Shown here one piece after another: positions 27,632-32,276 of a stretch of DNA of 64,000 bases. The notes below the pieces were generated by a model that was not told the DNA's origin, searched no databases, and saw only the letters and a program-made list of their open reading frames with translations. Position 1 is the first letter of the stretch. Each line of letters opens with the position of its first letter. This DNA comes from Candidatus Chloroploca mongolica. Lineage in GTDB: Bacteria; Chloroflexota; Chloroflexia; Chloroflexales; Chloroflexaceae. The DNA is taken from positions 1 to 64,000 of the forward strand of contig NZ_SIJK02000012.1 in the NCBI RefSeq assembly GCF_004762035.2, written 5' to 3'. Made by a program: the position numbers and the translations under genes.

Positions 27632-27641
27632 ACGCCCGTCG

Positions 27642-27762
27642 CTTGGGGGTGTGAGGGCGCAACCCCCAAGTATCACGCTTGTGCTGGCGCAAACAGCCAG
27701 CACAAGCATAGGTTTTGAGGGCGCTAGCCCGAAAGTTCATGCGCATGGGGCACAGTCCCCAG
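27642..27762. repeat. Modular hairpin repeat element, copy 1
   Basis: A first hairpin (CTTGGGGGT 27642-27650, complement 27662-27670, loop GTGAGGGCGCA) is followed by a 12-bp perfect hairpin (27677-27688 and 27696-27707), then a GGTTTTGAGGGCGCTAGCCC module (from 27711) with AAAGTTCATGC. A GGGG/CCCC mini-hairpin ends it (27747-27760). The two flanking modules resemble each other. Related copies lie at 37882-38033 and, in the other orientation, 45466-45592. The element sits in the space before nadC and would otherwise be read as a false N-terminal extension of it. Confidence 0.75.
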
Positions 27763-27785
27763 TCATCTCGCTTGTGGAGCTCTCT

Positions 27786-28634
27786 ATGGAACTGCCCACC
27801 ACCCTGGTACGCGAATTGCTTACGCGTGCGCTGGCCGAGGATCTTGGGAGTGGTGATCTGACAACGCAGGCCGTGATTCCTGCGACGGCACACGTGGAAG
27901 CAGCCTTTGTCTTCCGCGAGGCCGGCCTTGTCTGTGGCCTCGACGTCGTTGCCGCCACCTTTACGCTCGTTGATCCCACACTCGTTGTGACGCCCCTGGT
28001 GCAAGAAGGCGCCCAGGTTGCCCCCGGTACCGTGGTGGCAACCGTGAGCGGCTCAGCCCGTGGGGTGCTGACCGGAGAGCGCGTCGCGCTCAATCTTTTT
28101 CAACGCATGAGTGGCATTGCAACCCTCGCAGCACGCTATGTCGCTGCAGTCGCTGGAACGAAAGCTCGGATCCTGGATACACGCAAAACAACACCCGGTC
28201 TGCGCCTCCTCGAAAAGTACGCCGTACGGCTTGGTGGCGCGACAAATCACCGCTTCGGACTGTATGATGGCGTGATGCTCAAAGATAATCACCTCGCCAT
28301 CCTCGCCGCTCAGGGCATTGGTCTGGGGGCAGCAGTACAACAAGCACGTGCAGCGGTTGGGCCAATGGTGCGCGTCGAGGTCGAAGTTGAAACTGTGGCT
28401 CAGGCTGGCGAAGCCGCCGAGGCGGGGGCAGATCTCATCATGCTTGATAATATGACCCCTGAGACGATGCGTGCTGCGGTGAGCCTCGTGCAAGGGCGCA
28501 CCTTGCTTGAAGCCAGTGGAGGTGTTACTCTGGAACGAGTACGGGCAATTGCCGAGAGCGGGGTGGATTATATTAGTGTCGGGGCTCTGACCCACGCAGC
28601 GCGCGCCCTCGATATTGGGCTTGATATTGCTTGA
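27786..28634 (+). CDS. nadC: Nicotinate-nucleotide pyrophosphorylase (carboxylating)
   Basis: The 282-residue enzyme makes nicotinate mononucleotide from quinolinate and PRPP in NAD synthesis. Signatures: AEDLGSGDLTTQAVIP at the N-terminus, the Arg/Lys active-site stretch RILDTRKTTPGLRLLEKYAV, HRFGLYDGVMLKDNHL and the PRPP-side VEVEVETVAQAGEAAEAGAD. The C-terminal DYISVGALTH is typical of the barrel. The ATG at 27786 is chosen because sequence before it belongs to the repeat element and does not resemble NadC. A strong promoter for the next transcript follows 15 bp after the stop. Confidence 0.95.
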   Translation: MELPTTLVRELLTRALAEDLGSGDLTTQAVIPATAHVEAAFVFREAGLVCGLDVVAATFTLVDPTLVVTPLVQEGAQVAPGTVVATVSGSARGVLTGERVALNLFQRMSGIATLAARYVAAVAGTKARILDTRKTTPGLRLLEKYAVRLGGATNHRFGLYDGVMLKDNHLAILAAQGIGLGAAVQQARAAVGPMVRVEVEVETVAQAGEAAEAGADLIMLDNMTPETMRAAVSLVQGRTLLEASGGVTLERVRAIAESGVDYISVGALTHAARALDIGLDIA

Positions 28635-28649
28635 TTTTGCTTGATACGT

Positions 28650-28678
28650 TTGACACACAGAGAGCGCTCTTGTAGAAT
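28650..28678 (+). promoter_or_regulatory. Strong sigma70-type promoter after nadC
   Basis: TTGACA (28650-28655), a 17-bp spacer and TAGAAT (28673-28678) form the best promoter in the window. Transcription should begin near 28685, 590 nt before the next gene's start codon. Confidence 0.75.
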
Positions 28679-28684
28679 AGCAGT

Positions 28685-29274
28685 ATTACATAGACCTGAA
28701 AGTGATCCTGATCATAACTTGAAAGATACGCTGAGAAATTTGCTCAGCGTAAGATTATTCCACAGTTTGTTCAGAGGCATGAGCGCTAATTGCATCATGA
28801 TCTTGCATCAAAGCTGTGCCCGAGCAAAGTGCCTTCGGTGCGGTAGCACATGGCCCGCAAGATAGTGACGTTCGCGTTGTTGCATAGCCAGGCTGAACTG
28901 TACGGGTACAAAAGCCTGCACCGTCAGGCGTCTGCCAACCTTGCCTGATGCACAACCCGATAGTAACGCTCTATGAACAGGCTAGGCATGGATCATAGGG
29001 GGGCTGATGTCTCAAGATGCGGTACATCAGTGGACACATCGCGGCTCCGCACTTTTCCCCAATGGTGATGTTCAACGCTGGTTTGCTCTATGTCACTTGC
29101 TGCATCATCGATTGATGCACAGATTCACGCAACCACGAGGGCCACCCTGATGGTCTGTTTGATCGGAAACAACTGGTGAAGCCGATAGATTGGGTAGCTC
29201 GTCAGGCCTCTGGTGGTTGTTCTATTGTTGACACTACCAACGCCTCGTTTTCGCTGCAGGAGGAAGGAATTTTC
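28685..29274 (+). ncRNA. Candidate structured RNA or long leader (unassigned family)
   Basis: This is the longest gene-free stretch (~590 nt). It begins at a near-consensus promoter and holds no convincing reading frame. Visible hairpins: a 9-bp stem at 28727-28735 and 28743-28751; a 10-bp stem with a 3-nt bulge (TGCA and TCAGGC at 28917-28929, partners at 28943-28952); CTGATGT/ACATCAG (29004-29010 and 29024-29030); GCGG/CCGC (29041-29050); TGCATCA/TGATGCA (29101-29107 and 29113-29119). The RNA could be a separate small transcript or the leader of the 29275 gene. I checked by eye for RNase P, tmRNA, SRP RNA and c-di-GMP, TPP and cobalamin riboswitch signatures and found none. Confidence 0.4.
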
Positions 29275-30063
29275 ATGGATCGTAACAACAACACAGGAAC
29301 AGCCGTACACGGAAGTTCGACTAACCGCTTGGCCCTGCTAGGTTTTGCGCTGGTTAGCGCCGTGGCCGCGCTGCTCTTCTGGATTCTGGTCACAACAGCC
29401 AGCGCCCAGAGTCTCGCGAATGTCACGTTGAACTGGGTCTCGCCAGGCGCAAGTGCCACGGTGAGCACGCCAGTGTCGTTTGAGGTCGGTGCGACCGGCC
29501 TTGCCGATGGTACATTTACGTACGCGTGGACGATTGACGGGACAACGACCTTTACGGATAGCGCGACAGCAGCGACTGGCGCGGCAACGTTTAACCAGAC
29601 CTACACGTTCGGCGAGATTGGTCGGTTTGGCATTGCATCGCAACTGACCGATGGGGCGGCCACGCTGGCCGCTGACTTCCGGCAGGTGCTGGTGACCGGC
29701 ACGCTCGCCATCTCCCCAACAAATGTTTCGACTGCCGAAGAGACCACGTTTGTCGTGACGATGCCTGAACTGCGCACCGCTGGTGCCAGCGAGGGTGCCG
29801 TCTACAATCTCGTGATTGCGTATGGCGACGCCATCGATAGCTTCGAGCGGCTTACGGTCGCCCCAGGCACCACCACCGTGACCACAACCCATAAGTACCT
29901 GATCGGTGGAACCTTCGCGGTCACCGCACGGGTTGAGTTGATCGACACCTACAACAACTATGTGTACGACGATGCCGATGTGCTGGCGACAGGGAGTGCC
30001 ACAACCGTTGTGACGCAGAAGATCTACCTGCCGATCATTGGCAAGTTTGAGGAAGTGCAATAA
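29275..30063 (+). CDS. Secreted beta-sandwich (PKD-like) surface protein
   Basis: The 262-residue protein has a signal peptide or anchor (LALLGFALVSAVAALLFWILV, ending TASAQ), then two beta-rich Ig/PKD-like regions: TVSTPVSFEVGATGLADGTF with YAWTIDGTTTF and the second with TSAEETTFVVT-like strands around residues 150-240. No catalytic motif is visible. The tail is KIYLPIIGKFEEVQ; many Chloroflexota secreted proteins, as I recall, end in a similar YLP(I/L)(I/V) string of unknown function. GAGGAAGG 8 nt upstream supports the ATG. It is preceded by the long RNA-like leader and followed by two hairpins, so it is a single-gene transcript. Confidence 0.6.
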   Translation: MDRNNNTGTAVHGSSTNRLALLGFALVSAVAALLFWILVTTASAQSLANVTLNWVSPGASATVSTPVSFEVGATGLADGTFTYAWTIDGTTTFTDSATAATGAATFNQTYTFGEIGRFGIASQLTDGAATLAADFRQVLVTGTLAISPTNVSTAEETTFVVTMPELRTAGASEGAVYNLVIAYGDAIDSFERLTVAPGTTTVTTTHKYLIGGTFAVTARVELIDTYNNYVYDDADVLATGSATTVVTQKIYLPIIGKFEEVQ

Positions 30064-30080
30064 GCAAACGATGCATCCCG

Positions 30081-30098
30081 TAGCCTGGTAACAGGCTA
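30081..30098 (+). other. 7-bp hairpin past the secreted protein gene
   Basis: TAGCCTG (30081-30087) pairs with CAGGCTA (30092-30098) around a 4-nt loop. It lies 18 bp past the stop codon and precedes two further stems (30111-30119 with 30127-30135, and the terminator at 30146). Confidence 0.5.
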
Positions 30099-30145
30099 TG
30101 CGCGTCACGCTGATTGGTTCACAGGAAACCGATCAGATCCGTTTT

Positions 30146-30197
30146 GAGTGAGCCGGGCGCATGGCGCCAGCCATGTGCCCGACTCATTACGTTGTTT
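30146..30197 (+). terminator. Hairpin terminator before glgE
   Basis: CGGGCGCATGGC (30154-30165) pairs with 30170-30181 (one G-U wobble), extended by GAGT/ACTC, and is followed within 5 nt by a T-rich stretch (TTGTTTT). It separates the secreted-protein gene from the glucan cluster. Confidence 0.6.
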
Positions 30198-30242
30198 TCG
30201 CCCCTACCAATGCTGGTAGCGGTGCAATGAGGGGAGCTGGAG

Positions 30243-32276
30243 ATGCCAGCGAAGCTGAAAACGCCCACGAAGGGCTCAACGGTGGCAGAGGCCGCCACAT
30301 CGAATGGGCTCACCGTCTTTGGTGAGGGACGACGGCGCGTCTTGATCGAACACGTTATCCCCCAGGTTGATGCAGGGCATTATCCGATCAAACGAGTTGT
30401 CGGTGATCTCGTGACGGTCGAAGCCGATATCTTTGCCGATGGGCACGATGTGCTCGCCGCTGTGTTGCGCGTGCGCGACCCCGCTGATCAGTCCTGGCAC
30501 GAGATGCCGATGACGCTTCTCGGCAATGACCACTGGCGCGGTGTCTTTAGTGTCGCGACGATGGGCACCTATACCTATACCCTGGTCGCCTGGATTGATC
30601 GTTTTGCAACCTGGGAACATCAGTTGCATAAACGCGTTGAGGCGGGGCAGGAAGTCCAGGTCGATCTCTTGATTGGCGCTGCCCTGGTCGATGAGGCAGC
30701 AGCAGATGCGCCTGATTCAGTTGCCGCAACGCTGCACGGTTTCGCCGCAGCCTTGCGTGCGGGTGACGCCGAGGCTGCCTTTACCCCCGAACTGGCCCGC
30801 CTGATGAGCGCACACCTGCCGCGCCAGTTTGCGACAACCTTTGAGCGCGAATTGCATGTCACGGTTGATCGCCCTCTGGCGCGCTTTTCGGCATGGTATG
30901 AACTCTTTCCCCGTTCGGCTGCGCTTGAGCCAGGGAAGCATGGGACATTTATGGATGTGATTGCTCGCTTGCCCTATGTGGCCGAGTTGGGCTTTGATAT
31001 CCTCTATCTGCCCCCGATTCACCCGATTGGCCGCCAGTTCCGTAAGGGCAAAAATAATAGTGTCACGGCGCTCCCTGATGAACCCGGTAGCCCCTGGGCG
31101 ATCGGCGGCCCTGAAGGCGGCCATAAGGCGATCCATGCTGAACTGGGTACCCTTGAGGATTTTCACGAACTTGTCGCTGCAGCGCGAAGCTATGGCATCG
31201 AGCTTGCCCTCGATATTGCCTTTCAGTGCTCGCCTGACCATCCCTATGTGCGTGAACATCCCGAGTGGTTCCGCGCTCGCCCCGATGGAACCATCCAGTA
31301 TGCTGAGAATCCACCGAAAAAGTATCAGGATATCTATCCCTTCGACTTTGAAACCAGTGATTGGCAGGGTCTCTGGTATGAGCTCAAGAGTGTCTTTGAG
31401 TACTGGATTGCACAGGGCGTAACGGTCTTTCGCGTCGACAACCCCCACACCAAGAGTTTTCGCTTCTGGGAGTGGTGCATTGGTAGTCTGAAGCGTGACC
31501 ATCCTGAGTTGATTTTTCTCTCTGAGGCGTTTACCCGCCCCAGGGTGACGTATAATCTTGCCAAGCTTGGTTTTACGCAGAGCTACACCTATTTTACGTG
31601 GCGCACCCAGCGTTGGGAGCTTGCCGAGTATCTGCTTGAGTTGACCCAGACCGAAATCAAAGACTATTTTGGCCCCAATTTCTGGCCCAATACGCCTGAT
31701 ATCCTGACCCCTCAGTTCTATCCCGGGCACCGCTCGGTCTTCCTGACCCGCGCTGCCATGGCAGCGACGATGATGGCAAGCTGGGGCATGTATGGCCCCG
31801 TCTATGAGTTGATGCAACACGTGCCTGCACAGGGCCGGGAAGAGTATCTCAACAACGAGAAGTATGAGATCCACCACTGGGATCTAGACGACCCGAACAG
31901 TTTGCGTACTTTCATTGCGCGCCTGAACCAGATCCGTAAAACGAATCCGCCGCTTCAGCGCAATACAAACGTGCGCGTGCATCGGGTTGATCGCAACTTT
32001 GCGCTGAACGAGCAGCTCTTTGCGTATAGCAAAACAACCGATAATGCCACGCATATCATTCTCGTTGTGGTCAATCTTGACCCCGAGCAGGTACAGAGTG
32101 GGTGGGTGCAGGTTCCTGTCGATGAGTGGCACCTCGGGGCAACCTATCTTGCTCACGATCTGTTGAGCAACGAGCGGTATGTGTGGCAGGGTGAATATAA
32201 TTATGTCTCACTTGATCCTGCGACGATGCCCGTCCATATCTTGCGACTGGAACGCCAGGAGGAGTTGCCTGGCTAG
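30243..32276 (+). CDS. glgE: Alpha-1,4-glucan:maltose-1-phosphate maltosyltransferase
   Basis: The 677-residue GH13 enzyme extends alpha-1,4-glucan with maltosyl units from maltose-1-phosphate. The catalytic nucleophile is in FRVDNPHTKSF and the acid in LIFLSEAFTRP; both are at the positions seen in GlgE. The N-terminal beta domains (~20-190), DILYLPPIHPIGRQFRKGKN and the C-terminal sandwich fit a full GlgE, which is normally 660-700 residues. GGGGAG lies 7 nt before the ATG. It is the first of five glucan/trehalose genes; the next starts 34 bp after. Its substrate is made by the maltokinase fused in the next gene. Confidence 0.95.
   Translation: MPAKLKTPTKGSTVAEAATSNGLTVFGEGRRRVLIEHVIPQVDAGHYPIKRVVGDLVTVEADIFADGHDVLAAVLRVRDPADQSWHEMPMTLLGNDHWRGVFSVATMGTYTYTLVAWIDRFATWEHQLHKRVEAGQEVQVDLLIGAALVDEAAADAPDSVAATLHGFAAALRAGDAEAAFTPELARLMSAHLPRQFATTFERELHVTVDRPLARFSAWYELFPRSAALEPGKHGTFMDVIARLPYVAELGFDILYLPPIHPIGRQFRKGKNNSVTALPDEPGSPWAIGGPEGGHKAIHAELGTLEDFHELVAAARSYGIELALDIAFQCSPDHPYVREHPEWFRARPDGTIQYAENPPKKYQDIYPFDFETSDWQGLWYELKSVFEYWIAQGVTVFRVDNPHTKSFRFWEWCIGSLKRDHPELIFLSEAFTRPRVTYNLAKLGFTQSYTYFTWRTQRWELAEYLLELTQTEIKDYFGPNFWPNTPDILTPQFYPGHRSVFLTRAAMAATMMASWGMYGPVYELMQHVPAQGREEYLNNEKYEIHHWDLDDPNSLRTFIARLNQIRKTNPPLQRNTNVRVHRVDRNFALNEQLFAYSKTTDNATHIILVVVNLDPEQVQSGWVQVPVDEWHLGATYLAHDLLSNERYVWQGEYNYVSLDPATMPVHILRLERQEELPG

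Follow-up and report, generated by a model that had tools for sequence, protein, structure and literature searches.

A conserved, probably folded candidate mRNA leader in a cassette behind the ancestral glgE promoter of Candidatus Chloroploca mongolica

In the genome of Candidatus Chloroploca mongolica, a sigma-70-type promoter is separated from the next gene by about 590 nt devoid of any credible reading frame. A first-pass annotation read this stretch as a large unassigned RNA or a regulatory leader, which raises the question of what it is and how it came to lie there. The locus was examined here in a 64,000-nt stretch of contig NZ_SIJK02000012.1 (the window), together with related genomes of the genus, family and order.

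The locus, its promoter and its cassette

The genes follow each other in the order nadC (27786-28634), a 262-aa surface-protein gene (29275-30063) and glgE (30243-32276). The features of the locus are as follows:

28650-28678, + strand: predicted sigma-70-type promoter (TTGACA-17-TAGAAT), ancestral to glgE, its boxes recurring before glgE in relatives
28685-29274, + strand: presumed 5' untranslated leader, its start placed from the -10 box, with 28711-29274 lying within the cassette
about 28711-30141, + strand: cassette (leader, surface-protein gene and terminator), delimited by junction alignment against the empty nadC-glgE site of a third Chloroploca species (G001)
29275-30063, + strand: gene for the 262-aa protein, with an N-terminal membrane or signal helix; Shine-Dalgarno sequence GGAGGAAGG at 29259-29267
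30110-30136, + strand: terminator-like hairpin 3' of the surface-protein gene; the Khr17 sequence differs and still pairs, with G-U
30146-30188, + strand: strong hairpin in the glgE leader (30140-30195, z -7.04), found in G001, which has no cassette, as well as in the window genome and Khr17, which carry it
30243-32276, + strand: glgE (maltosyltransferase), with Pfam GlgE domains, now cut off from its old promoter

The -35 box (TTGACA, 28650-28655) and the -10 box (TAGAAT, 28673-28678) are separated by a 17-nt spacer and match the consensus at 11 of 12 positions, making up the sole promoter-like site in a scan of the 1.8 kb from 28500 to 30300. With shuffles of this region yielding a mean of 0.8 matches, the motif match is by itself non-significant; the promoter is credible because both boxes, at the same spacing, are kept upstream of glgE in the nadC-glgE gaps of five relatives, one from the same genus as the window genome, G000 (G001), and four from the same family (G003, G026, G027 and G037). 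Since these relatives have the boxes without the leader, sequence comparison identifies the predicted promoter as the ancestral glgE promoter, inherited by the window genome, and this position bears out the TTGACA-17-TAGAAT promoter of the first-pass annotation as real.

The 1.43-kb cassette lies between this old promoter and glgE, and is carried by the window genome and by Candidatus Chloroploca sp. Khr17 (G002). G001, the third Chloroploca species, lacks it, as do four outgroups with a readable nadC-glgE gap; in G001 this gap spans less than 180 nt, occupied by just the promoter and the hairpin of the glgE leader. The three Chloroploca species are nearly equidistant (93.4, 93.0 and 92.8% identity over about 62 kb), so that a gain in two species and a loss in G001 look the same from these three alone, and it is the outgroups that favour an insertion. 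The motif GATCC occurs at both junctions (28704-28708 and 30136-30140), beside short TGATC ends, and is not retained in Khr17; these repeats could have been left by an insertion or by a short-repeat deletion. No long frame within the cassette resembles a transposase. DNA searches across the genus, family and order returned a full-length leader match in Khr17 only, G001 matching in the promoter part only, and covariance models of 28966-29121 and 28712-28880 matched only their two source genomes among 158 genomes of the class. No homologue of the leader was detected in phages or plasmids, in viral contigs by one exact 28-mer, or as a second copy within its own genome. Further upstream, the ugd-nadC gap (27632-27785) measures 154 nt here and in G001 and 440 nt in Khr17, where part of it is apparently duplicated.

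The small secreted protein gene expected after the stretch is present, its 262-aa product being membrane-anchored or secreted to judge from the N-terminal helix. This product has no Pfam or NCBIfam family, and its AlphaFold model (pLDDT 40) was unusable. The gene was also considered as a link to the leader elsewhere and discarded, as its G001 homologue lies at a different place, on another contig and behind a PP2C-type gene, where the leader is absent. At its C-terminus, this homologue (L021:1435-2649) is extended by a segment that scores below threshold against the PPC domain (PF04151, E 1.8e-4), and neither of the other two genomes shows the PP2C-type context. On the downstream side, no consensus promoter of glgE's own was found in the new gap left by the cassette, and the hairpin at 30146-30188 is a possible control element of glgE.

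Conservation and coding potential of the leader

All leader comparisons rest on two sequences, those of the window and Khr17. The gap at 28635-29274 (640 nt) is 93.3% identical between them, with 43 mismatches and 3 gap columns, and the leader itself (about 590 nt) has one internal 1-nt indel. Divergence at four-fold sites is 20-22% for nadC, ugd and the surface-protein gene and 13% for glgE, dS in the neighbouring genes, surface-protein gene included, being 0.20-0.27; the divergence of the leader is thus about one third of the four-fold-site level in nadC and the surface-protein gene. When pooled, the other intergenic gaps of the window are 87.5% identical, the alignment comprising 1946 compared bases and 302 gap columns (Fisher p 3e-5). 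Individual gaps of 63-309 nt reach 95-97%, so that conservation by itself is unexceptional. Measured against silent sites, and by its scarcity of indels, the leader is under constraint; it is one of several conserved gaps. It contains several runs of 56-57 bases identical in Khr17, including 28990-29045 and 29210-29266, the latter extending the identity to the Shine-Dalgarno region.

By codon phase, the 42 substitutions in the leader are distributed 16/10/16, with no three-base rhythm, and synonymous and non-synonymous counts per frame are near neutral. Among 12 gap-free frames tested, none open in both species had a convincing synonymous excess; the top one, a minus-strand, 38-codon, stop-to-stop frame at 29087-28974, has 5 synonymous changes and 1 non-synonymous change, which is weak after 12 frames. 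Pfam gave no match to six-frame segments of the leader, a search for tRNA and tmRNA detected neither, and Rfam release 15 gave no match at gathering, with E values up to 10 admitting only chance eukaryotic families (E > 1). To judge from its flat substitution phases and near-neutral frame counts, the stretch is gene-free, as first described, and the Rfam search suggested at that time is consistent with an unassigned RNA.

Predicted fold of the leader

Taken as a whole, the leader folds marginally better than shuffled sequence (z -1.28, 9 of 100 shuffles being equally good). Locally, more stems were found than the "at least five" initially noticed, several having a z of -2.5 to -3.4, for parts that were picked after the fold was seen:

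28721-28760, + strand: hairpin 28727-28751 (arms 28727-28735/28743-28751) with an outer extension, in which pair 28726/28755 changes from A-U to G-C; 28708-28778, z -3.39
28795-28868, + strand: helix 28795-28806/28857-28868 around a hairpin, in which pair 28833/28852 changes from C-G to U-A; z -0.64, ordinary
28876-28956, + strand: repeated CAGGC/GCCTG segments with competing pairings, containing the bulged helix 28917-28952; z -1.48
28966-29031, + strand: two adjoining hairpins (arms 28967-28976/28993-29002 and 29003-29012/29021-29031), the four substitutions of the first lying within its loop region; 28963-29035, z -2.61
29098-29122, + strand: hairpin TGCATCA/TGATGCA, substitutions confined to the loop; z -3.10
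29211-29239, + strand: hairpin 5' of the ribosome-binding site, identical in Khr17; 29208-29241, z -2.51

The 10-bp bulged helix singled out at 28917-28952 can indeed be drawn as proposed, TGCA-ccg-TCAGGC (28917-28929) forming ten pairs with GCCTGATGCA (28943-28952) around a 3-nt bulge. In Khr17, changes of C to T at 28921 and T to C at 28924 move the bulge and retain the ten pairs, a suggestive pattern in a helix picked by eye. However, windows around the helix, at z -0.4 to -1.5, fold no more stably than shuffles, and the consensus fold differs, pairing 28943-28950 with 29200-29207 and not with 28917-28929.

The two-sequence consensus fold comprises 174 pairs, none of them broken; three pairs have both partners changed and three have one. 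Because this fold was chosen to suit both sequences, it was compared with folds obtained for random and for shifted substitutions. Its energy of -179.0 compares with -164.9 (sd 5.3) for randomly placed substitutions, none of 200 being as low. When the real substitution pattern was moved along the sequence with its clustering kept, z was -2.15 (0.7% as low), and 21 coding control segments ranged from -0.97 to +1.85, none falling below -1. In the same shift test, the antisense strand scored at least as well (z -3.33). Against a null mean of 1.2, the three double changes are reached by 11.5% of nulls, and by 65 of 500 shuffles in a separate test; single-sequence folds lose 9-16 pairs in the other species on the plus strand. 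Comparative folding, which had been suggested as a check, gave a divided answer: substitutions tend to spare the shared fold, but the double changes are no more than shuffles provide and the antisense strand scores too. The plus strand is favoured by the promoter, by the direction of the gene and by the one-sided changes, which leave G-U pairs on that strand, an argument rather than proof. The leader is conserved and non-coding, and probably folds.

Regulatory leader, separate RNA or spacer

The stretch sits between a predicted promoter and a gene on the same strand. The explanation that we consider best, with about an even chance of being right, is that the surface-protein mRNA begins with a long structured 5' untranslated leader, which acts in cis and lies in a cassette behind the old glgE promoter. 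According to this model, the cassette with its surface-protein gene would have come to lie downstream of the old glgE promoter and upstream of glgE itself. Transcripts starting at that promoter would open with about 590 nt of untranslated RNA, conserved and folded, continue into the surface-protein gene and end mainly at the hairpin 30110-30136. The leader may then set how well the surface-protein mRNA is translated or how stable it is and, through read-through past the hairpin, how much glgE message is supplied. In favour of this reading, the stretch from 28678 to the gene has no other promoter-like site and the leader no strong terminator; the G001 homologue, which lacks such a leader, counts against it. 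More generally, a reading as leader or RNA is retained because the stretch is conserved beyond four-fold sites, non-coding, without an Rfam family and substituted in a manner that respects the fold.

The stretch might also be an ordinary spacer or decayed sequence, brought with the surface-protein gene and drifting slowly without function. This is unlikely, although its ordinary overall fold energy, its confinement to two species and the 95-97% identity of some other gaps would all suit a spacer; the reduced divergence relative to four-fold sites, the single internal indel set against the many gap columns of the other gaps, and the fold-respecting substitutions speak against it. More doubtful is a separate non-coding RNA made from the same promoter, processed or terminated before 29275 and trans-acting or structural. 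Its length, hairpin content and long identical runs would fit, as would a weak terminator-like site at 29199-29216, but this site has a poor stem and tail, shuffles yield 1.6 such sites, conservation continues through 29210-29266 to the Shine-Dalgarno region, and the genome holds no other copy.

That the region acts as DNA, through putative binding sites such as the 7-mer TGCATCA/TGATGCA, appears improbable. Five copies occur within 581 nt, versus 25 in the rest of the window, and the total stays at five in Khr17, where one copy is relocated; however, two copies are the arms of the single hairpin 29098-29122, correction for how many 7-mers were tested removes most of the significance, and conservation extends beyond these sites. 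Most improbable of all is a hidden small protein, encoded either by a 47-aa frame at 29007-29150 behind AGGGGGG or by the minus-strand frame described above. Both frames are open in both species and the latter has mostly synonymous changes, but the former has 5 non-synonymous versus 3 synonymous changes, close to neutrality, and these frames were among the 12 tested, with no Pfam match.

As in structured cis-regulatory leaders, a promoter, a long non-coding and putatively folded stretch, a ribosome-binding site and a gene follow each other on one strand; unlike them, the Chloroploca leader has no known aptamer, no Rfam family and no clear expression platform, and occurs in two species only. 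Another comparison is provided by Chloroflexi-1 (RF01698), a lineage-specific candidate RNA from comparative genomics listed for Chloroflexus aggregans (PMC2864571). Both are candidate structured RNAs restricted to one small Chloroflexota group, but the leader is unmatched by the Rfam library. Large structured non-coding RNA classes recur in several lineages as homologues of conserved architecture, whereas this leader was found in the window genome and Khr17 only.

The initial reading as a large unassigned RNA or regulatory leader is still the best one, qualified by a promoter inherited from glgE, an occurrence in two species, thin covariation and a fold test in which the antisense strand also scores. 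As a regulatory leader the stretch is plausible; it is a modest candidate from two species, not an established RNA class. It is very doubtful that it represents a new large structured RNA (about 560-590 nt) of part of the genus Chloroploca, one that came with the surface-protein gene, took the glgE promoter and couples surface-protein expression with glucan metabolism. A limited literature search turned up no published transcripts from this group. Should it be transcribed and fold as proposed, the stretch would represent an untranslated leader of unusual length in a group of phototrophs with few described RNAs, and the locus would illustrate how an inserted gene captured an existing promoter and severed a metabolic gene from it.
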